Notes under the pieces: model-generated | Database searches by the model: none | What the model was told of the DNA's origin: nothing | What the model saw: the letters and a program-made list of their open reading frames with translations, nothing else | Assembly: GCA_014898415.1 (NCBI GenBank) | Contig: RCTD01000021.1 | Coordinates: 1-64,000 of the forward strand | DNA from: Stromatinia cepivora | Taxonomy: Eukaryota > Ascomycota > Leotiomycetes > Helotiales > Sclerotiniaceae | Length of the DNA: 64,000 nucleotides | Direction of reading: 5' to 3' | Part shown: piece by piece, positions 31,971 through 61,200 of the stretch | Position numbering within the stretch: position 1 is the first letter of the stretch | How the letters are laid out: each line of letters begins with the position of its first letter | Made by a program: the position numbers and the translations under genes

Positions 31971-34900
31971 ATGCCATCCTTTAAGCGTCGGCGAATTGGC
32001 TCTGCTGGGGGTTCTAATCGTCAGCATTCCGCCAGAGGACAATTGACAAGGTTTCGGTCAAGCTCATCAAGAACGAGCTCCGTTCCCCAAAGCGAGGACC
32101 GCCCGTCTTCAATGCAATCCCCTCCTGTTCCATTCAAAAATAGGATATCGATAAAATCAGCATCGTCAGATGTCACTGCACCGCCATCAGTGCAAGATGA
32201 GGGCAGTAATCTTGAAGGTGGAGAGAATGAGTCGGATATTCAAGAACGGGAATATGAGGATTCAATGGACGAAATTGTCATGGCTGTTGAATTGAAAGAG
32301 CGTGGCACCATTGGGTGTGCATATTATATCGCAAGAGAAGAGAGATTATGTATGATGACTGACATAAGTATGGCTGGACTTGACATGATTGACACTCTAA
32401 AAATTCATGTAGCGCCTACTGGTAGGGTCCCATGAGAGGCCTAGGTATCATTAATGCTAATATGCTATAGTGATTTTAATAAGCACTCGGTGCGAAGAGG
32501 CCCTAGAGGAGCATCTCCAGAAAGATGCCAAGGGTATTGACAGAGGAGATGCAAGTAGGTCTTTTTAAAAGGAATCACTTGCGCTGAGCTGATCTTCCAG
32601 ATGAAATATTTGGCTCATATATCCTCGATTCTCGACCGGCTGCGGAGTTTTATTATGAGGCAGCGAAGAATAAATTGGCCAGCTTGGATACCGGAGGCAT
32701 GAGAGACGCGGGCATGATGTTTGTCACTCCTGGTGACGACTTCGCTGGAGATCGCAATCATGGCCAGGCAGATTTAGGTGGCGCGAGTTGCCAAGGAAAA
32801 TTAATGAGACTCGCTGGCTGGATCGACTTGGAGAGCAAAATCTCGGTAAGTTATACAACCTGATTTCTTTTCCCAATGGCATTCATCGGGAATCCAAACA
32901 AATGGATGAAACTGACCTACTATGACCATTGGAATGAAAACTCTTAGTCACATATTAAAACAACATCGCACAGCTTTACTAACGAGCATATTTCTAGGTT
33001 GGCTGTGCCGGTGCAGTACTTAACTACCTTGGACGACGACGAAGTGTAGATTACTTACCTAATGACGAGGCTGCATTGATTGCATTCAGGATCCGCAACA
33101 TTGAGATGTTTTCATTGACGGATATGATGTTCGTAAACGCAGATACATTATCATCGCTTCAAATTATCCAGTCCGAGTCTCATCCGAACTCCCATATGCA
33201 AGGTCCGAATAAGTCAACTTCGGGATCAAAAGAGAGCTTATCCGTCTTTGGTCTATTCTATCATTTGGCTAGCACACCACAGGGTAAGCAAATGCTTCGG
33301 AAGATGTTTTTGAGACCAAGTATAGATATGTCGGTAATCGAGGAAAGACTCAGGACAATAGGTACTTTTCTAATTCCCGAGAATCGACCACTAATACAGG
33401 AAATCCAGAAGAGTTTAAAGAGTATCAAAGATATCAGAACTGTGGTAATACATCTTCAGAAAGGTGTAAGTGGAGGTTCTGGTAAAGCAATAGCGGTCAA
33501 AAGTGGTATTTGGGGTAGCATTCTCTCATTCTCCTTCCATTCGCTCAAGATACTTGAAGCATTGCGAGGGTTGGCAGGCGATAAGACAGTTATCGCTGGC
33601 AAGGTGAGAATACCTGCAACTTCCAAATTAATTCTTACAAAAGCTGACCCAAGAGCCTAGCTCCTCAACGAAGCTCGCCCTAATGACTTTCTTGGCATTG
33701 GCCAAATCATTACCGAGACGATAGACTTTGAGAGATCGGCCGAGCAACATCGTATCACGGTTAGACAAGGCGTAGACCCCGAGCTGGACGAAATGAAAAG
33801 GACGTACGATGGCATAGAGAGTTTTCTTGCGGAAGTCCAAAGGAAAATGACTGATGATATACCTGAATGGGCCCGCCAATATGTCGAAAATTGCATATAC
33901 TTTCCGCAGCTTGGCTTTTTGACGGTCGTACAGCTCGATCCCGATACAGGCGAAGGAAAATACAAAGGCGAGGGGACGGAGGAAGATGAATGGGCGCAGA
34001 CTTTTGTCAGCGATGAGAAAGTCTATTACAAGAACAGGCGTATGAGGGAGATGGACGAGTATATTGGTGATATGTATAGTACGATCGCAGGTAAGTTGTT
34101 GCTTAAGCATTGTTGTAGAGCACGTACCAATTACTCCTGATTCGCTAGGCAGGGAGATCGAGATCATACATGGACTTACTGTGCGTGTACTGGAGCAAGA
34201 AAAGCTTCTCATCACGGTGTCAGATCGATGTGGTGAACTTGATAGCCTCGTTGCACTTGCTCTTGGGGCTATCAAATATCGTTTCAACCCTCCAACTATC
34301 ACGCAAGCCAACGTAATCGATATTAAAGGCGGACGACATCCACTTCAAGAGCTTACAGTCCCATCCTACGTCGCAAATGACTGTTATCTAGCAGGTGGAT
34401 CAGGAAATGGCATTGGCATTGATCAACAGTCTGCTTCAGATACCACCCAAGAGTCAGAAGATATCGGATGTCCGAGTATGCTCCTTATGACCGGCCCAAA
34501 CTATTCCGGAAAGAGTGTCTATCTCAAGCAAACCGCTCTGATTGTTTACTTGGTCCACATTGGCAGTTATGTCCCCGCTGATAGAGCATCTATAGGTCTT
34601 ACGGATAAGATCTTAACGCGGATCACCACTCGCGAAAGTGTTTCCCGAAACCAGAGCGCCTTCATGATTGACCTGCAACAGATAGCTCTCTGTACAACAC
34701 TTGCAACTCACCGTAGCCTTGTGGTTATCGATGAGTTTGGTAAAGGTACCAATTCAACAGATGGGGCAGGCCTTGCTTGCGGCGTTTTCGAATATTTCCT
34801 TGGGCTCGATTCCCATCGTCCAAAAGTACTCGGAGCAACCCATTTCCATGAAATTTTTGAGAATGGATTCTTGTCCCCAAGACCTGAATTGTCGTTTGGA

Positions 34901-35269
34901 CATATGGAGGTTCACGTCGACAAAGAAGCTGACCTAGCTGAAGATCAAGTCACATACCTATACAATTTTGTGTTGGGTAGAAGCACGTCAAGCTTTGGTA
35001 CCTCTTGTGCTGCAATGAATGGAATTGATTCTACTATCGTCGAAAGAGCCGAAGATTTAATATTATTAGCGGCTCGAGGAGAGGATCTAACGGAAGCTCT
35101 TGCGGCAAATATATCGAACAAGGACGCTCAAGACCTAGAGGATGCAGAAAATATTGGGAGACGCTTTTTCGAACAAAGCCTCCCTACGTCAGGAGGTGAT
35201 ACTACCGCCATCGACGTCCGAAGTATTCTTCGAAACATCCTAGATGTCGAGGGTGAGATTGAGGCGTGA
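31971..35269 (+). CDS. MSH5: Meiotic MutS homologue MSH5
   Basis: Partner of MSH4 in the MutS-gamma complex that stabilises meiotic recombination intermediates and promotes crossovers. Six exons: 31971-32421, 32471-32554, 32601-32845, 32998-33603, 33661-34090 and 34149-35269; 978 residues. The N-terminal 100 residues are Ser-rich and basic. The MutS connector/lever part contains VGCAGAVLNYLGRRRS and DMMFVNADTLSSLQI...SLSVFGLF, followed by the core domain. The ATPase domain has Walker A TGPNYSGKS (about residue 720) and Walker B VVIDEFGKGT (about residue 797), with the MSH5-type wording YSGKSVYLKQTALIVYLVHIGSYVPAD split over that region. There is no N-terminal mismatch-recognition motif (F-x-E), as expected for MSH4/5. 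All six exons join in frame with GT-AG introns of 46-152 bases. Confidence 0.93.
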
Positions 35270-40426: not shown

Positions 40427-43400
40427 ATGTTTGACACATATGCTGAGCGGATGTACGCAGAAAGAGCTACGGATGGTCGTGAAGGAGCTCAAATTCCATT
40501 GCATTCGGATAATTACCGCGGAGAACTCGCTCCACCAGGAGATCGCTCGTCCTCCGAGGGTGAGAGAAACAATGATGGAACATGGGGAGAACATGACCAA
40601 GGCGGACCAGTCGATCGCTCGGCCGCCATGCAAGACTACGAACAACTGCGTCAGCAACTCACACATTTGTCGAGAACTCGTTCACAAAAGAGTGTGGGTA
40701 CTGCCCAAAGACCTTCGGCGCTAAAGAAGATCGTGACTAACGCTAGTCGCCGCTCACGAACGACTGCCGGTGAGGATATAGAGGCGCAAGAAGAGGAAGA
40801 AAAGCTTGAAGAAAACGAAGACACTGCGGCTGAGGATGAGGATGAGGATGAGGATGAATTCGTACTAGGAGACTTCCTCAAAGATGGTCATTTTGAGAAG
40901 CGAAATACGAGAGGAAGTGCTAAAAAGGTTGGTGTGATATACAAGAACTTGACTGTACAGGGGGTTGGAGCAACTTCAACTTATGTCAAGACTCTCCCGT
41001 CTGCTATCATGGGTGTAAGTAATTGTCTGTTCCAAATTCACACAATGTTCCAGACTAATCTATACAATGTAGACTTTCGGACCCGACTTATACAAGCTGT
41101 TGGCGCGGTTCATCCCTGCACTCCCTAAACCTGGATCTCATGGCCAGAGACGCGATTTGATCCACGATTTTACCGGTTGTGTACGCGACGGAGAGATGCT
41201 TCTGGTTTTGGGCAGACCTGGTTCTGGATGCAGCACATTCCTTAAAGCTATTTCGAACAAGAGGGGTGATTATGCTGCTGTCACTGGAGAAGTCTCATAC
41301 GGAGGTATTTCTGCTGAAGAACAAGCAAAGCACTATCGAGGAGAGGTCAATTACAATGAGGAAGACGATCAGCACTTTCCGAGTCTTACGGTTGAACAAA
41401 CTTTGGATTTCTCACTTCTAAACAAGACGAAAAAGCATGAGAAGGGAGATATTCCCACGATAATTACAGCGCTACTGAAGATGTTTGGTATTTCTCACAC
41501 GCGTCACACCCTAGTTGGAGATGTGAGTTCTCGCCTCTTTCCGAATATGATTATAGGAAATAAGTTCTAACGCTTCTGTAGGCTTTCGTCCGAGGTGTTT
41601 CTGGTGGCGAGCGGAAGCGAGTTTCTATTGCGGAGACACTTGCTACTAAGAGCACAGTCGTTTCTTGGGACAACTCTACTCGTGGACTCGATGCGTCGAC
41701 TGCATTAGACTATGCTAATTCCCTAAGAGTAATGACCGATATCAGTAACAGAACAACTCTTGTCACCCTCTATCAAGCCGGAGAGCAAATATACGAGCTC
41801 ATGGATAAGGTACTAGTGATTGATGAGGGAAGAATGGTATATTCAGGACCAGCAAGTGACGCCAAGAACTACTTCGAGAGAATAGGATATTATTGCCCAC
41901 CGAGACAGACTACTGCAGATTTCCTGACGGCTTGCACGGATCCAGCCGAACGCCGGTTTCAAAAAGACTTTAGAGGTCCTATTCCAAAAGGCCCTATTGA
42001 GCTTGAGAAAGCATTCAGAGAAAGCGAAGATTACAAGCTACTTTTGGAAGATGTTGGGTCGTATGAAAGGATGCTACATGAGACCGACCACGCGGATGCA
42101 CGACAATTCAAGGCTTCCGTGGAAGAGACAAAATCCAAGACTGTTGGTTCCCGATCGCCTTACACAGTCTCTTTCTTTCGTCAAGTCCTTGCTTGCACAA
42201 AGCGCGAAATTCAATTGACTCTTGGAGACAAGACAACTCTATATACCAAATTCTTTATTATCATTTCCAACAGTTTAATTGTCGGTTCCTTATTTTACGG
42301 ACAAGCAGCCAACACACTCGGAAACTTCTCTCGGGGCGGTACTATCTTTTTCTCCATTGTCTTCCTGGGATGGCTTCAACTATCTGAACTGATGAAGGCT
42401 GTCGGTGGTAGACCTATCATTGCTAGACACAAAGATTATGCTTTCTATCGTCCATCAGCCGTTGTAATTGCTCGAGTCGTTCAGGATTTTCCGCTGCTAC
42501 TGCTACAGGTTGTCCCGTTTTCTATTGTAGTGGTAAGTATTTGGTCATTCGTAGCTGTGCGGAAATTATACTAACAATCATAGTATTTCATCACCGGACT
42601 TGACGTTGATGCTGGAAAATACTTCATCTATGTCTTGTTCATTTACCTTACGACGTTTTGCATCACCTCCTTATATCGCATGTTTGCCGCACTCTCGCCA
42701 TCGATTGATGATGCTGTTAGGTTTTCGGGTATTGGACTGAATCTTTTGATGTAAGTTGCACTCATGTCTGATCCGATTACCCCTATTGATAAATTACAGT
42801 ATTTTCACCGGATATGTAATTCCTAAACCACAATTAGTATCTGACTATATTTGGTTTGGATGGCTTTACTATGTCAATCCTCTATCATACTCATTCGAAG
42901 CCGTCATGTCAGACGAATTCTACAACAAAAATATCTCTTGTGCTCCGGAACAAACTGTTCCCAGTGGTCCAGGCTATACAAATTCAGAATTTCAGGGCTG
43001 TGCTTCTATCGGTGCTGAGGCTGGAAGCTTGAGTATATCAGGATCTAGATATCTCGAGGAAAGTTTCAATTACTCAAGATCGCATCTATGGAGAAACTTT
43101 GGTGTCGGTTAGTATTAGTAACCTTTCGTTTAATGTTCCGTACGTTCCGGTATCTAACGCGTCCCAGTTATTGCTTGGACTGTCCTCTATATCCTCGTCA
43201 CTGCTATTGCCGCTGAAGTGTTTGATTTCACTGCTGGTGGTGGTGGTGCACTCGAATTCAAGCGTTCTAAGGCTGCAAAGAACAAGGTCAAAGCTGAAAA
43301 TGCTACACCCGACGAAGAAAATTCCCCGGCTTCTGCCAGTCCAGTTCCAGCAAGTGGCGCCTCTTCCAGTGACACGCTAGAGCCAGCTCAAGAGGAAACA

Positions 43401-45457
43401 CTCAAAGACATCTCTGGCTCGGAAAGCGTATTTACATGGGAGAACGTTGAGTACACTGTACCATACCTTGGTGGCGAACGCAAGATTCTCAACAAAGTCA
43501 ATGGCTATGCAAAACCTGGGCTTATGGTGGCACTAATGGGAGCTAGTGGAGCGGGAAAAACTACGCTGCTGAACACTCTTTCTCAACGCCAGAAGACTGG
43601 TGTAGTGACTGGAGATATGTTGGTTGATGGACGACCATTGGGCACTGAATTTCAGAGAGGTACTGGATTTTGTGAGCAAATGGATCTTCATGATGGCACA
43701 GCTACCGTTCGAGAAGCTCTCGAATTCTCTGCTATACTTCGACAAGAACATACAGTTCCAAAAGCTGAGAAGATTGAATACGTAGATAAGATTATTGATC
43801 TCCTCGAATTACGGGATATGCAAGATGCTTTGGTCAGATCTTTGGGTGTGGAACAGAGAAAGAGAGTTACGATTGGCGTTGAACTAGCAGCAAAGCCTAA
43901 CCTTCTACTCTTTTTGGATGAGCCTACTTCTGGACTCGACTCCCAATCTGCTTATTCCATTGTTCGATTTCTGAAGAAACTTTCTGCAGCTGGTCAAGCT
44001 ATCGTCTGTACTATTCATCAGCCCTCCTCAGTCCTCATTCAAGAATTCGACATGATTTTGGCCTTGAATCCGGGCGGCAATACATTCTACTTCGGACCCG
44101 TTGGCGAAAATGGTTCTGCAGTGGTGAAGTACTTTGCTGATCGTGGCGTGCACTGCCCTCCTCAAAAGAACGTCGCAGAATTTATACTCGAAACTGCTGC
44201 CAAAGGTGGAAAGCGCCGTGATGGCAAGAGACTCAACTGGAACGAAGAATGGCTTAATTCCGAAGAAAATAAACATGTTATGCAGGAGATTCAGCGCATC
44301 AAGTCTGAACGTAGCAAAGTTCCAGTTCCAGAGGCTAGTTCCCAACGCGAATTCGCTTCTCCGGTTGCACTTCAAACAACTGAATTGACTAAACGTCTCT
44401 TTACTCAATATTGGCGCGATCCATCATATCTCTATGGAAAGCTCTTCACATCTGTCATCATTGGTATCTTCAACGGCTTCACATTTTGGCAGTTGGGTTA
44501 CGGTATCATTGATATGCAGAATCGAATGTTCTCTTCATTCTTGATCATAGTCATCCCACCCACTATCGTCAATGCTATTGTGCCTAAATTCTATCAGAAT
44601 CGCGCACTTTGGGAAGCCCGAGAACTCCCTTCAAGGATTTATGGTTGGGTTGCATTCTGCACTGCGAATATCGTCGCCGAGATACCAATTGCTATTGTCG
44701 GAGCGGTGATTTATTGGGCATTATGGTATTGGCCTACCGGTCTCCCAAGCGACTCTTCCACATCGGGTTATGTATTCCTCATGACACTACTTTTCGTAAG
44801 TTCCTCCCTTCTTATTCCATCCCTTTATCAAAGTTACTAACACCTTCTCAGTTCCTCTTCCAAGCCTCCTGGGGTCAATGGATCTGCGCCTTCGCACCCT
44901 CCTTCACCGTAATCTCCAATGTCCTCCCCTTCTTCTTCGTCATTTTCAGTCTCTTCAACGGTGTTGTCCGCCCTTACTCTCAAATGTCCGTCTTCTGGCG
45001 CTACTGGCTCTACTATCTTAATCCAGCCACATATTGGATCGGCGGTGTTATCTCTGCTACCCTCTCCAATGTCCCAGTCCAATGCGTCTCCAATGAAGCT
45101 GCTTATTTTAATCCTCCACCGGGCCAAACTTGTTCCTCTTATGCTAGTAACTTTGTTACTTCGGCCGGAAGAGGATATTTGACGAATCCGGGTGCCACGG
45201 CAAATTGTGGATATTGTCCATATGCCAGTGGAGAAGAATATATGGCGACATTAAATATTAGTCCGAGTGATAAATGGAGGTATTTTGGGATTTTCTTGGG
45301 ATTTTGTATCAGTAATTGGGCGTTGGTTTATTTCTTCATCTACACAGTGAGAATTCGAGGGTGGAGTTTTGGATTTGCAAGTTTGTTTGGAGGATTGGGG
45401 AAGATGATTGGGAAGGTTAAGAGTGCGTTTAGAGGGAAGGAAAAGAAGAGTGAGTGA
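40427..45457 (+). CDS. PDR-type ABC transporter (ABCG full-size)
   Basis: A plasma-membrane drug/xenobiotic efflux pump of the pleiotropic drug resistance group, with (NBD-TMD)x2 order. Seven exons: 40427-41014, 41073-41522, 41582-42532, 42584-42750, 42800-43107, 43168-44795 and 44852-45457; 1565 residues. NBD1 has the degenerate PDR Walker A GRPGSGCST (about residue 243), signature VSGGERKRVSIAE and WDNSTRGLDAS. NBD2 has canonical Walker A GASGAGKTT (about 945), the degenerate signature LGVEQRKRV and Walker B LLFLDEPTSGLDS. Such asymmetry is normal for the group. An Asp/Glu-rich stretch (about residues 125-145) precedes NBD1. Membrane segments follow each NBD, with Cys-containing extracellular loops (SCAPEQTVPSG..., CVSNEAAYFN...). 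It resembles fungicide/phytoalexin exporters in style; substrate unknown. The start is the first ATG in context. Confidence 0.93.
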
Positions 45458-46302
45458 TTCTGGGTAGGCAAATGATCGGTTATAGAGGGAGGAAAAGAGG
45501 CTTGATATACCAAAGAGACGTTAATATGATTTGATCGAATTGGATTTTGGGTTTAGCATTGGTTCGTATATCACGACACATAGAGGTTTATTAAAAATAG
45601 GCCCATATATGAATGTATTAGAGCGGCAACGTCCAAGGAGTATCATGATAGATAATGATTAGTTTAATAATGATGGAGGGATATATACTTCTAATAATAC
45701 GCATTTGTCTTCTATTTCGTTTCGAGATCCGAAACCACCAAATTTAACGATTGATTGTGATTGTTTTGTTCTCCGAAAACACACGATAATGGATGACCGC
45801 ATATATTGGACGAAGATTTGTTGGGTGCAGGATGCGAGATCTCTACTTCAGAGCTAAGGGTGGGTGGAATGAGTGCTTTTAAGATATAATATAGTAGGAA
45901 ATATACCTACAGAAGAGATCTATTCCGACCACCTGATTCCCTCTAACCCAAGCAGAGCCCATCCAAATATCTCATCCAAAAATCAACACAATAGCAAGCA
46001 CTCCCATATACATACTCCGCCTCCATCCAAACTTTTCACAATATTGAACTCTGAAATCTCATCTCACTCACTAGCTTGTAATCCCATCCAATCCCATCCC
46101 AATCCCGCCTAGCATCTACATCCGCACTCACAAACACTGGGCCAAAAAAAACAAAAACAAAACAGATCATCCATTCTTTAACCACCCATACCCCTTAACC
46201 ATACATCCCACCATCTCCCCTCCCCACAAAAACCCTAAAACCAGAATCCTTCCCCTCCCCACAAAAAAAACCAAAATATCAAAACATCAACGAAGGGAAT
46301 TG
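45458..46302. other. Intergenic, nothing seen
   Basis: 3' flank of the ABC transporter. AC-rich and A-rich runs near 46140-46290. No gene. Confidence 0.4.
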
Positions 46303-46375
46303 AGCCCAACGGGGGGGTCGAACCCCCAACCTTGTGATTAAGAGTCACACGCTCTACCGATTGAGCTAGCCGGGC
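46303..46375 (-). tRNA. tRNA-Lys (anticodon CTT)
   Basis: A 73-base cloverleaf on the minus strand without an intron. The acceptor stem GCCCGGC pairs with GTTGGGC (two G-T pairs), the D arm is GCTC-AATCGGTA-GAGC, the anticodon arm TGTGA-CTCTTAA-TCACA has CTT in the centre, and the T arm is GGGGG-TTCGACC-CCCCC. The A box (TAGCTCAATCGG) and B box (GGTTCGACCCC) are intact, so it is probably functional. Confidence 0.97.
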
Positions 46376-55157: not shown

Positions 55158-56541
55158 CTAAGACCTCCTTGCATCACATTCTTCAAGGAACTTGTATATT
55201 CCTTCTAAGCCTTCATATTCCTCCGATACAGATGGATGTTCGGTGATCTTTGTAAAATATGCGGAACCGCTTTCGCTGATATCTTCTTCCATTGTTCCAT
55301 AATCTTCAATCCAGGGGTTTTCCGAGAATTCTTCGAGAATATCTTCATATTCATCTTGATCAGGAGAAGGGGAACTAGTTTGTAGACAGTGTGATGAAGG
55401 GCGTGAGAGCAATTCTGCTTCGGTAGTAGGCGCGAAAGGAAATAGAAGAGCCATCTGTGTTCCCACGGCAGAATCAAAATCGGCATCCTGATATACAATT
55501 CCACGTTGCACGCCGACTTCATCGCAGAGACGCTCTACAGATTCGGCATCACAGCCTGGAAACCTGACACGCAGTATGTGGTTGTTTTCGAGGGTTATGG
55601 GGAGATCGCCGAGAGAGGACAGCTTTTTGAGGTCGTTCATTGTTACTGCGAGATCTTTTAGAGCGCGGGAGAAATCGACGGAGAGAATGTCGAGGAAGCC
55701 GGATGTGTTGAGGGATGGGGCGGCCTGTGACATCTTTTGAGTTCCGAAGGGGAGGGCTCCGGCGAGAGGGGATAGAGCGGTGACAGTTGGGTTAACAGAG
55801 AAATCGATATAGGAGCCTGGGGCAACTTTGGAGACAGATTGGATCTTGCGGGCTGTTTCTTCTTGAAGGGAAGAGACCGCTCTGTAGCGTTTCTCGCCCA
55901 TAGGAGTCATACCATCGAATTGAGCTTTTTGGCCAGAAAGGAAGAATGCTCGGACAGCTTGTGAGACATTGTTAACCACTTGTGCTGGAGCAGCAGGTGT
56001 GTGGGAAAAGTATCGAGCACCTGCTCTTCCACCTCCTAAAGTATAACCTCCTGCTGTTCTAGGGAGAGCTCCACCAGTTAAGTTTGGTCGGAGAGTTGAG
56101 GCAAATGGAGCTCGTGCTGTGAGACGTGATACAGCGGTTGCGGTGTTTGATTTTGGGAATGAGGCACGGTCATATTTAACAGCTTGTCCGCTGGTGCTCA
56201 TAAAACGACGTACAGCGGTATTGACAGCACTCTGGGTTGTATACCATCGTCCCTTGTTTTGACGGAGGAGGGCCGCTGGATGAATGGGATGACGAGGTGA
56301 GCTTCTTACGAAAATTGGTTGAAGTTCTGCTGTGACAGGTTTGTTGGTAACATCTTTGATACGTAATTTAATGAGTTTCGTAGTTCGTTGAACTACATTC
56401 CTGTAATAGATATTAGAATACTATGTTACATTGACGGCAACGAGGACATTGGAATTTCCCGTGGAGAAAGTTGGATTTGGTAGTAACTTACTTTAGCATC
56501 CTCATGGCTATAGGTGCCCAGATGCCTCCGGACGACGCCAT
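55158..56541 (-). CDS. Conserved fungal protein, mitochondrial-looking N-terminus
   Basis: Exons are 56541-56492 and 56400-55158; the join MASSGGIWAPIAMRMLK-NVVQRTTKLIKLRIKD keeps frame; 430 residues. The first 130 residues are basic, Arg/Ser/Thr-rich and contain RYFSHTPAAPAQ, as in mitochondrial targeting regions. The middle part reads VSQAVRAFFLSGQKAQFDGMTPMGEKRYRAVSS and GSYIDFSVNPTVTALSPL. The C-terminal tail is strongly acidic (DQDEYEDILEEFSENPW...). I recall similar fungal proteins carrying the name 'casein kinase II beta 2 subunit', but no CK2-beta zinc finger (paired CxxC) is present, so I do not adopt that function. It shares its upstream region with the snoRNA host gene. Confidence 0.78.
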
Positions 56542-56890
56542 GATGAATACTGTTTTATGAAGTTATTTACTCTTTGATTGTAAATGGAAATGGAAATGGG
56601 TTCATACCTTGAAGTCAAGACGGATCTTATCGGGGAATGTTATCGCCACTGCCCAGCCACATTGTGCATTGCGTGGCTTAGAAGCTAACTATTTCCAGCT
56701 TTAGTGCCATTTGTGCGCTAGTGATTAGCGCGAAATAAAAATTTTGATTTTGAGCATTAAAACTTTTCTTCCTCTGTCTGTTTCTTCCAATTGCAACCAT
56801 CCAACATTTGCAACGACAACAATATCTTCACTTTTCTCATGATTTGATTTTATTTATTGGTAAGCGATCTCTTCTCCATGCCAGTTTCAA

Positions 56891-56973
56891 TTGCCTCAAT
56901 GATGAACACAAACACATATTGAACAATCCAACTCTTACACCACAATGGAGATTTGTATTTTCTATCTGAGCAA
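56891..56973 (+). ncRNA. Box C/D snoRNA candidate A (25S guide)
   Basis: In intron A. Box C ATGATGA (56899-56905), box D CTGA (56966-56969), ends able to pair as TTGC (56891-56894) with GCAA (56970-56973). Between the boxes, TGAACAATCCAAC (56920-56932) is complementary to 25S rRNA GUUGGAUUGUUCA just before the A-loop region. Pairing can extend to 19 bases (56920-56938) with one mismatch. The D' box is not clear, so the exact methylated base is not predicted. The second antisense stretch before D (TTGTATTTTCTAT) has no target that I recall. Confidence 0.7.
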
Positions 56974-57133
56974 TCTTGATTTACATCATCAATTCAAATG
57001 CGACGCAGTTGAGCAGACAGCTAACTTCTATCTTAGACAGCTTCAATTGCTATTTTAATTCTTCCCGCCATTCGCACAAATTTTAATTCAAAAGGTTCGT
57101 ACATTTTTCCTCGCTCTCTTTTTGTACGCACCG

Positions 57134-57230
57134 TTGGGGGTGATGATGAAAACACATTGGAAAGGCATTCCTCAATCCGAATTATACTGTCGAATCTTTG
57201 CATTTAAGTTTCAGCCTTGTCTGACCCATC
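57134..57230 (+). ncRNA. snR41: Box C/D snoRNA candidate B (18S guide, snR41-like)
   Basis: In intron B. Box C GTGATGA (57140-57146, overlapping ATGATGA 57143-57149), box D CTGA (57221-57224), with GGG before C and CCC after D as terminal stem. Directly before D, TTTAAGTTTCAGCCTTG (57203-57219) is complementary without mismatch over 17 bases to the universal 18S segment CAAGGCTGAAACTTAAA. The fifth base upstream of D pairs with the first G of AAGGCTG. From memory this is the yeast Gm1126 site, guided by snR41. The symbol marks that correspondence only. Confidence 0.85.
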
Positions 57231-57586
57231 GTCCATTACTATTTATCATTGAAACATCTTTTCTGTGCCAAAGCTAACCATACATTGGCAATAGGTACAT
57301 ACACTTCCCCTTACCATCAATTCACTCGCATTACATGACGAACTTTGAACGAACGGGCGGACAGACTGCGCACTCCTGCTCCTACCTCTCATTAAAGCAA
57401 GGCGTACAAACCTTGTGAGGGGTAGACAGCTAGGAAGTGCTTGTTGAGAACTCGTCAGCTGATCTAATGCTCAATTGCTTCTGGATCATTTTGATATGCC
57501 GCTTGAGATAGAAACATTGATGCTAACATACCTTTCTTCTAGGTAAATATTGCAATCTTCTCCCCTATCGTTACACAGGACCATTG

Positions 57587-57668
57587 CATTGAAATGATGA
57601 AACTTATTCACACTGTTTGAAGTGGACTATGTCCGCTACTGAACGCACTATAAAAATCTGATTTAATG
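57587..57668 (+). ncRNA. Box C/D snoRNA candidate C (25S guide, snR51/snR67-like)
   Basis: In intron D. Box C ATGATGA (57594-57600), box D CTGA (57658-57661), another CTGA at 57639-57642. CATTGAA (57587-57593) and TTTAATG (57662-57668) flank the boxes and form a 7-base terminal stem with one G-T pair. TATTCACACTG (57605-57615), followed by a D'-like TTGA (57617-57620), is complementary to the fungal 25S segment CAGUGUGAAUA. In yeast, snR51 and snR67 guide methylation of two uridines there, as far as I recall. Confidence 0.8.
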
Positions 57669-57890
57669 AGGTATGCTTTACTCTTGTATGACATATAAGA
57701 CCAATGCTAACAATACCCTAGCCTGACATTTGCTTATGGTTCCTTGCATTTTGACTCCATCGAAATGATATTCGACTTTAGATAGCAATTGCTGATAATT
57801 TCATCTCGAATATAGACACTCCATTATTCTGAAGCTGTCGATAAAGTTATCTATTAAAATGTAAGCTACTTCTTTTCATTACCTCTCCAC

Positions 57891-57983
57891 ACTATTTGCT
57901 CTGATGAACCCAAATATTCGCTGTGTTCTTTCCGAGTCAACCTTTGACGAAACACATATTTCACCTTGGAGAACTGAGATAGT
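57891..57983 (+). ncRNA. Box C/D snoRNA candidate D (25S guide)
   Basis: In intron E. Box C is CTGATGA (57901-57907; C instead of a purine at the first base), box D CTGA (57974-57977). ACTAT (57891-57895) and ATAGT (57979-57983) can form an outer stem. TTCACCTTGGAGA (57960-57972), one base before D, is complementary over 13 bases to 25S UCUCCAAGGUGAA. The predicted site is the C in GUCU-C-CAAGG, which I do not recall as a yeast methylation site. Confidence 0.72.
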
Positions 57984-59600
57984 ACTCATGTTATTCATTT
58001 TCAACCTTCTGTCGACGATAGTTAGGACATGAAGCTAACTTGCATAGATATTATGAAAATTGGGGGATGGAATTTAATTTGAGTTAAGGCAATGGAAGTT
58101 ATAGATAGACATATAAAAGATTCTCAGAACATTACCATCTCCTGACTTGTCCTACCATGTGAAAATCCTCCATCATCTTGTACTCAAAGGTCGCCTGTGT
58201 GTCCGCAATGCTCATTCCCATAACATTTCCCACCCAAATCACCTGAATTCAGGAGCGACCTCGCGTTCGTCTACTGGTCCCGCACCACTTGATGATCCCC
58301 TTTGAAGTAGCTTCATATTCGAAGACCACTCAATGGATTTATTATCAAAACCACCTCCCATCGAGGTACTCCGAGCCAAAACGGGTTTGCAAAGATGTGA
58401 AATACAGAGCTATAACGAGAGCCTGAGTCCAATATGTCCAAGACCTGGTAAAATCCCAGAAGCTGAATGGCTTCGTACCAAAAGCACAGCTAGGCGGATA
58501 CTTCTGAGTTAATAGCAAAGATATCGACGGCATGTCCAGAAGCCTGCTTTATCAATAAGCCACATTCCCTCCTCTTCTCTTTTCCACTCGTACATCTCCT
58601 TTAACCATCTCGAATTCTACTCCCTTTCTTGTGCTGTATCTGGCTGTGGACCCTCCATGCTGTCCATCTTATGACTAAATCGCTCCGGCTCTAAAGATAT
58701 GTCCTCTACCAAAAAAGCTGGAGAATATCTTCAAGCGGGTGTGTTTCTTCATCACCTTGGATCGTACTTGTGATTCCTCAATATGAAAAGGCACATCTGT
58801 CACATACTTGTGATTCCACTATGCAAATCATACTTAGTATCTTCCCCTATTTTTACTCTCCTCAAAACCTCATATACCTCACTGAATTCTGATCAACGAA
58901 TGCATCTTGTCTTGTGCTGATGCATCGATTTTATCTGATCGAACCGCTTGTTATATTCCAGTACAGTACTATCTATGATATGTTCACGAATACTCGGAGT
59001 TAGTACATTGATTAGTAGCTTGAATTTTACACAAATATATTTTCTTGAATTTGATCTCTAGCAGCTTCTGTCTCATAACATGGAACCGTGATGGGAATCC
59101 AAAGATCGGCATGGAGACTGTGTCCCATTCCGAACCAACGGAACAAACCGCTTTTGAAATTCATCCCTCCTCAAACACCTGCTGCACGCACCGTGCTAGT
59201 GGAATTCAGCTTCGGGATTTGGTGATATGCAGGGCTCGCTATTTGATGAACGCACTGTGTTTTTGCATGGTCCTCAAGTAACTTAGATGACAATGCAATA
59301 CAAAACACATACGATTCTTTTCTCCCTCCATAACCCTATATCCTCATATAAAAACCCTCCAAAAGATCCCTCCCACTCAAACTACCTCCCACTCAAACTA
59401 CCTCCCATCTCCCATCTTCCATCTTGCCTCTCCCATCACATTTGCCTAAAGAAAAGAAAGAAAGAGGGAAAGAAAAAAACCTTTCGGCCCTTTTTGTATT
59501 CCTTCTACTTACTTCCACTTCCAGTACCTAACTACCTACTTACATACATTACTCTACAACTTCACATACATTCTATTATACTCCATCCCACTCCCTTTGC

Positions 59601-59616
59601 CCCCCCCCCCCCCCCA
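59601..59616. repeat. Poly-C tract
   Basis: A run of about 16 C followed by A's in non-coding sequence, 100 bases before the (ATAC)n array. Confidence 0.85.
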
Positions 59617-59716
59617 AAAAACAAAACGCACAAAACGGGTGAAAGCAAGAAACAAAGCATCAAAGTATACCGGACAAAAGCGACAAAAAACAGAACAAAA
59701 TCATTATAAAAGCCAA

Positions 59717-59804
59717 ATACATACATACATACATACATACATACATACATACATACATACATACATACATACATACATACATACATACATACATACATAC
59801 ATAC
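59717..59804. repeat. (ATAC)n microsatellite
   Basis: About 22 uninterrupted ATAC units in non-coding DNA. Confidence 0.97.
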
Positions 59805-60057
59805 CCACCCAACCACCCACCTAATATACAAGAACCCTTTCAAAAACAAAAAACACCCAGTACTAGTAATCTATAATTTAATCTACAATTTAATTATAAG
59901 AGCTTCGGGCCGATCAATGTATGCCATGATGCCTGATGTAATCAATGTTCAATGTGCGAGTATGAAATGGGTGAAAGTGGATGAAGTGGGTGAAATGAAT
60001 AGCATGCTGTGGAACACTGGATGGAGGTTTATTTACACTAAATACATGTAATGTAGA

Positions 60058-60312
<255 letters not shown>

Positions 60313-61200
60313 GCCTAGGAAAGGATAGCAATTGAACTACCTAACTAATTATGAATTATGAAATAAATTACAATTACAGATTTAGATACCTAGTAGATTA
60401 TGGATATCCGAATCCAAATCCATATCACTTTCATTATGAAAGAAAGGCAAAATCACATATCATACAGTGCCAAAATACTATGTAAAAAATGTTCTTCATC
60501 TATTCAGCTGGTGATTGACATCTTGATAAAGAAGAAATGCATGATACCTAGTAGACTAAGAGACCAGTAGGTACATCACATAACATAATGAAGCTCTACG
60601 TCTTCTTCCTCTCCTCTTTCCCTTTCATGCTTTACAAATCCATTGTTTTGTCCAGTCCACTAGTGAACTCAACCTAGATCATGACCACACCTAATCATCA
60701 ATTCCTCCTAATCTCCATCTACTTGTTTATTTATCCTGTTCATAATGCAATGAAATCATTGGTTATTGAGAGATATCAGCAAGCAAAGAAGGGAGATCAG
60801 AGATGTGAAAGTTATATGAAAAAAAGGAAATACAATCTTGAAAAGTCCATCCCAATTTACCCATTGTTCCTAAGATTACATGCATGCATGGAGATAACCA
60901 CCAAGCAGTTCTTCGAGTACCTTGTTGTAGCAATCGATCTTTTTGAAAATTCTCCCACCAAACCCTTGCTGGATATTTTGTTTTTGATACCACAATCTTC
61001 AAATGTGTTGCCAGCCTGCCAAAAAAAGAGAAAAGGCTACCATTGAGAATTTTCGCAAAATAATGGAAAAAAAAACCTGTCCATCCACTTTTAATGCATT
61101 TGATATCAATTGCAAAAATAACAGCAATGCTTCTGAGACGCCAGAAAAGTCAGAGAAAGTAAATTCGTTGAATAAAATTGTGTAGAGGAGGCGTGTTGAA

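Follow-up and report, generated by a model that had tools for sequence, protein, structure and literature searches.

What does the plus-strand interval 56860–58047 encode, where intron signals follow one another without a reading frame to join? Coordinates refer throughout to the window, that is, the whole 64,000-nucleotide stretch of Stromatinia cepivora DNA that was analysed. We conclude with high confidence that this interval is the Euascomycete box C/D snoRNA gene cluster III as it occurs in S. cepivora, a host gene whose introns each carry one snoRNA. Its limits are the start of the first and the end of the last predicted intron, and the snoRNAs are ordered along the plus strand as CD17/U45-like, snR41, snR70, snR51 and Afu_294. 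A preliminary description of this DNA had proposed a non-coding host carrying four or more C/D snoRNAs in its introns. That proposal is supported here, and the cluster is known to be spliced in other filamentous ascomycetes, according to the available part of Luo 2013 (PMC3596301). The count holds as a minimum only, since we find five, snR70 probably being the one that was missed. In addition to this fifth snoRNA, which lies in intron II, our analysis adds two zero-length exons and a sixth intron. Since this biology has been published for other filamentous ascomycetes, the locus itself is no discovery.

The absence of a reading frame is confirmed. There is no ORF of at least 150 amino acids (ATG, GTG or TTG starts) within 56202–60998, the longest ATG ORF overlapping 56600–58300 has 56 amino acids, and the longest open stretch across the joined predicted exons has 62 codons. 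The exons thus lack a long reading frame, as those of a UHG-like non-coding snoRNA host do. The neighbouring minus-strand ORF at 55158–56201, divergent from the snoRNA host, is identical (100%, full length) to S. cepivora EAF04_008163 (Sclerotiniaceae, Leotiomycetes), and several sources name it a casein kinase II beta 2 subunit; the ORF has no Pfam match of its own, PF28298 being precomputed on its relatives. This ORF and the snoRNA host may share a promoter region. Further away, the window holds a tRNA-Lys (CTT) at 46302–46375 on the minus strand, called by ARAGORN and also by Rfam, and ordinary neighbours such as a MutS-type ORF (MutS_V, 34064–35269) and an ABC transporter ORF (ABC_tran and ABC2_membrane, 43218–44840).

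How is the interval divided? All five of the GCTAAC plus YAG sets reported earlier are present, with CTAAC at 57021, 57274, 57523, 57707 and 58035, belonging in this order to introns A, I, II, B and C, each of which ends in TAG. Intron A (56860–57036, 177 nt, donor GTAAGC) is followed by the non-coding predicted exon 2 (57037–57098, 62 nt), then by intron I (57099–57294, 196 nt, donor GTACAT), intron II (57295–57542, 248 nt, donor GTACAT) and intron III (57543–57815, 273 nt, or 222 nt without intron B, donor GTAAAT, acceptor TAG at 57813–57815). The acceptor of intron III is the least certain boundary, as it rests on one weak branch site (CTGAT at 57792) and no CTAAC. A predicted exon of 45 nt (57816–57860) separates introns III and C (57861–58047, 187 nt, donor GTAAGC). 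The fourth branch/acceptor set, which had been counted as one of an ordinary series, belongs to intron B (57671–57721, 51 nt, donor GTATGC), which is nested in snR51; we rejected the idea that it closes an ordinary snoRNA intron, since it splits that snoRNA.

Introns I and II abut, as do introns II and III, leaving zero-length exons: the acceptor TAG of one directly adjoins the donor of the next at 57294/57295 (TAG/GTACAT) and 57542/57543 (TAG/GTAAAT). The window contains two instances of the corresponding pattern, GCTAAC-N4-18-YAGGTA, both of them at the host gene, against 0.12 expected, and 1 of 100 shuffles reached two. The geometry is regular. From the 5' splice site to box C, the five snoRNA introns measure, in order, 39, 41, 40, 51 and 40 nt, and from box D to CTAAC the four that have a CTAAC measure 52, 50, 61 and 58 nt. 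For Neurospora crassa, the available text of Liu 2009 (PMC2780460) gives mainly 41–60 nt between snoRNA and 5' splice site, compared with 39–51 nt to box C here.

We propose that the locus would give one transcript without coding sense, with one snoRNA per intron. Introns A and C would leave by ordinary splicing, and introns I–III by recursive splicing with zero-length exons: removal of intron I would bring the upstream exon to the donor of intron II, and removal of intron II would bring it to the donor of intron III, so that the three introns probably leave stepwise, 5' to 3'. Luo 2013, in its available part, lists 42 spliced EST products from relatives, of which 18 lack intron I, 14 lack I and II, 10 lack all three and none is out of order; stepwise removal of I, II and III was deduced from these ESTs, and the use of alternative acceptors was left open. 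If acceptors alternated, only the donor of intron I would work, picking the acceptor of I, II or III, and one lariat might carry two or three snoRNAs to be separated by nucleases. The published EST and RT-PCR products fit this scheme equally. We nevertheless regard it as improbable, because good donors directly adjoin the acceptors of introns I and II and because each of the introns is spaced like one that holds a single snoRNA, neither of which would need to be kept. A related system is known from the Candida parapsilosis group, where snoRNA cluster II is described as undergoing recursive and nested splicing (PMC5033589, as far as its available text goes) with a zero-length internal exon in the snoRNA host, as here; cluster III of that group, unlike ours, is spliced classically and has a one-base exon. 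Following stepwise splicing, the lariats would be debranched and trimmed to C/D snoRNPs guiding 2'-O-methylation. Five intronic snoRNAs tested in Fusarium graminearum need debranching, according to the part of that work available to us. For the present locus, transcription, splicing order, debranching and methylation are presumed by analogy with such relatives.

The boxes, guides, splice signals, family matches and geometry, by comparison, are features of the locus itself. Boxes C and D are present in all five predicted snoRNA introns; box C departs from the RTGATGA norm in snR70 (ATGACGA, intron II) and Afu_294 (CTGATGA, intron C), and the CTGA box D of snR51 comes into register with its 18S guide only once intron B is removed. 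The search with Rfam C/D models that the preliminary description had suggested gave a divided outcome: two of the five snoRNAs score above the gathering threshold, their covariance models placing both beyond chance (E 3.6e-16 and 8.5e-9), but snR51 falls just below that threshold, and those of introns A and II go unmatched even when E values of up to 5 are allowed. At relaxed thresholds, snR41 and snoZ101 overlap the Afu_455 and Afu_294 matches. The snoRNAs of introns A and II are candidates, identified by boxes, terminal stems and guides.

Could such motifs arise by chance in a non-coding spacer? A naive scan for box C followed by a guide and box D, taken alone, is compatible with that view and is weak evidence, as 78 of 2000 shuffles reach one match and 5 of 2000 reach two; the real region gives two, one of them spurious (inside intron B), and one after removal of B, Afu_294 being left uncounted because its box C starts with C. 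Chance is contradicted by the two Rfam E values, by two abutting intron signals where 0.12 are expected, and by the agreement of the snoRNA order with a published cluster, and we give it practically no credence.

Which rRNA sites would these snoRNAs address? Guides were compared with the rDNA of other eukaryotes (13 contigs), with Rfam consensus sequences and with a fragment of yeast 18S read back from a DNAzyme sequence in PMC3938493, any of which may differ from S. cepivora rRNA. The 13 contigs (L003–L015) come from one genome-contig scan and carry eukaryotic-type rDNA inside genomes filed as bacteria. Run on five of them as whole contigs, Rfam matched eukaryotic rRNA in every case, L007 and L008 carrying group I introns; for L004 it was run on part of the contig, and for L009 also in parts. 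Scans of viral contigs with rRNA patterns gave no match. Partners on this reference rRNA were found for most guides, the exceptions being the 25S guide of snR51 and, in intron A, the D guide. The predicted targets are 18S for snR41, snR70 and snR51, the LSU for the intron A snoRNA, the D' guide of snR51 and Afu_294, and 5.8S for the D' guide of Afu_294.

The best-supported members by family score are snR41 and Afu_294. snR41 (57136–57226, matching Rfam Afu_455 at 61 bits) has its box D at 57221–57224 and its 18S guide at 57203–57220; the 17/17 match to 18S noted earlier is this one, and 17 or 18 bases are exact in 5 of the 13 contigs. Afu_294 (57897–57980, 84.5 bits, box D 57974–57977) accounts for a 25S match first given as 13 bases extendable to 18/19: its LSU guide (57960–57972) is exact over 13 bases in one of the 13 contigs, L004, and 18 of 19 bases pair there, one G-U included. 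Its 5.8S guide (57917–57931) forms 15 or 16 pairs, two G-U among them, with a 5.8S stretch found in 7 of the 13 contigs. The 19-base pattern of guide plus box D also occurs in two viral contigs, neither of which has an Rfam match, and we took these hits as chance. A literature search under the names Afu-455 and Afu-294 found nothing.

The two candidates without family match are distinguished by their guides. In intron II, a snR70/U43-like snoRNA (57328–57470; box C 57335–57341, box D 57459–57462) is predicted from a six-base terminal stem, a long internal hairpin and an 18S guide (57353–57360) with an eight-base match to CCGCCCGT, present in 12 of the 13 contigs; taking CAGA as its D' box would place the mark on the fourth base of CCGCCCGT. 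Its guide and boxes are what suggest its identity as snR70. An ACA-like end near the 3' side had raised the alternative of intron II as an H/ACA host, which was dropped in view of the C/D boxes, the terminal stem and the U43-type guide. In intron A, the snoRNA at 56890–56974 (box C 56899–56905, box D 56966–56969, arms ATTGC/GCAAT) resembles CD17/U45 through one LSU guide (56920–56932), whose 13 bases match the Rfam LSU consensus at 2923–2935, as read by eye. The 13-base match to 25S described earlier thus stands on the consensus, but has one mismatch in 13 in L009 and L015, the two contigs with the site. N. crassa CD17 has a D' guide to 26S-Gm2875 and a D-side guide to 18S-Am154 (Liu 2009, available text), and the intron A site would correspond to 26S-Gm2875. 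Unlike CD17, the intron A snoRNA has no recognisable 18S-Am154 guide; its D guide (56950–56965) found no convincing rRNA partner among the 13 rDNA contigs and may be diverged or orphan.

The member split by intron B is snR51 (57590–57730; box C 57594–57600, 18S guide 57658–57670, box D 57723–57726). As unspliced DNA, it matches Rfam over 57590–57678 with 38.8 bits against a gathering score of 44. In the intact DNA the 18S guide is followed by GTATGC, and 52 nt separate it from the next CTGA, as opposed to 1 nt after removal of intron B. Excision of 57671–57721 joins CTGATTTAATGAG to CCTGA; the pairing with the A100 fragment of yeast 18S, 13 bases long before excision, then spans 15, and D+5 comes to lie on A100. 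Intron B contains an ATGA 17 nt beyond the guide, a form of box D that the available part of Luo 2013 also allows; it would put D+5 off A100 too. None of 20000 base shuffles of a 120-nt flank gave such an intron, in a test devised after the site had been seen. Among the 13 contigs, GGCTCATTA of the 18S site is found in four and the 11 bases spanning the junction in two. The 11-base 25S match noted earlier, which falls to snR51, found no confirmation on the reference rRNA of other eukaryotes: the 25S target was not found on the 13 rDNA contigs, and the single CAGTNTGAA match (in L003) lies in the first part of the LSU, away from the expected 25S site. The available text of Liu 2009 gives 11/0 for N. 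crassa CD6 at 26S-Um2687.

We suggest that the 51-base intron B would have to be excised from snR51 to join the 18S guide to box D. The same Liu 2009 text describes N. crassa CD6 as exon-encoded, so it is conceivable that intron III is retained here, that only intron B is removed and that snR51 is released from the host RNA after splicing. The weak branch site of intron III in S. cepivora fits such a course, as does its retention in 14 of the 42 EST products in Luo 2013 (available part); 10 of the 42, on the other hand, lacked all three introns, and donor GTAAAT and acceptor TAG of intron III are present here. We therefore place snR51 in intron III and consider an exonic snR51 possible but rather unlikely. 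Box D is in register with the 18S guide in the B-spliced snR51 only, and the rate of intron B relative to intron III splicing would then govern 18S Am100, whose base is 68% methylated in yeast, with snR51 limiting, according to a partly available source. That intron B splicing acts as a switch on this one ribosomal mark is speculative, and we hold it improbable. The literature found on stwintrons together with snoRNAs amounts to one passing mention.

How closely does the locus follow published clusters? In the available part of Luo 2013, whose species list includes S. sclerotiorum, a member of the family to which S. cepivora belongs, cluster III consists of snR41-snR70-snR51 with flanking snoRNA introns; two interior exons are missing in all Euascomycetes examined, introns A and C (with U45 and U55) were gained in nearly all, and intron B interrupts snR51 after its antisense element and before box D. 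Here snR41 begins at 57136, snR70 at 57328 and snR51 at 57590, all on the plus strand, and the locus shares with that cluster the order, the absence of exons between introns I, II and III, the position of intron B, the end snoRNA introns and the non-coding host, differing, as far as that text shows, in species only. Its terminal snoRNAs are called U45 and U55; here the first is U45-like and the last is Rfam Afu_294. In N. crassa, cluster III comprises CD9 (snR41), CD6 (snR51) and CD17 (U45) in a UHG-like host, with transcripts seen by RT-PCR (Liu 2009, in part). The two loci share a UHG-like non-coding host with an snR41, an snR51 and a U45-type snoRNA; the available text names only those three snoRNAs, compared with five here, and its exonic CD6 differs from our placement of snR51 in intron III. 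The same three central snoRNAs form a cluster in Saccharomyces cerevisiae, intronless according to the Luo 2013 text, where snR51 targets 18S-Am100 and 25S-Um2729, snR41 18S-Gm1126 and snR70 18S-Cm1639 (PMC3938493, PMC8307265, both available in part).

A further alternative is that the cluster has decayed, being silent, with its motifs as remnants. The weak D guide of intron A and the weak branch site of intron III would suit such an outcome. However, the locus retains its family scores together with all of its terminal stems, guides and splice signals, and the B-spliced snR51 is in exact D+5 register, so that decay appears very improbable.

Besides its 18S guide, snR41 has a second one (57162–57173, in a stretch extending to 57180), common to the Afu_455 consensus, which pairs with 18S GAGGAAT(G)CC. 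This site is present in 8 of the 13 contigs, the 11-base match of the second guide being exact in one of the eight, and it lies 64 nt before CCGCCCGT in six of them; in L007 and L008, with their group I introns, the distances are 509 and 525 nt. If the fourth base of CCGCCCGT is C1639, the snR70 site, then the G that opens GAGGAAT(G)CC is 1572, which is the yeast snR57 site. Pezizomycotina 18S carries a base that matches the second snR41 guide. The snR57 intron is reported as lost from cluster II in all Euascomycetes (Luo 2013, available part), and neither 'snR57' nor '1568' appears in the Liu 2009 text. We tentatively suggest, from guide complementarity, that snR41 may have taken over the 18S-1572 site from snR57, although we lean against it at present. 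The best-looking D' box (CCGA) puts the mark on the neighbouring A1573 and counts against this handover, as does the exact match in only one of the eight contigs, and the literature found for snR57 with Pezizomycotina, which was Candida work available in part, describes none. It is still likelier than the reading of intron B as a switch.

Taken as a whole, the locus is a clean case, from the Sclerotiniaceae, of a snoRNA host that has zero-length exons and in which a nested intron splits one snoRNA, and it lends itself to testing recursive splicing in fungi. Ordinary gene prediction easily leaves snoRNA hosts of this kind blank. Apart from the known features of the cluster, what stands out in S. 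cepivora is the second snR41 guide at 18S-1572, through which snR41 may have come to serve a site that belongs to snR57 in yeast.
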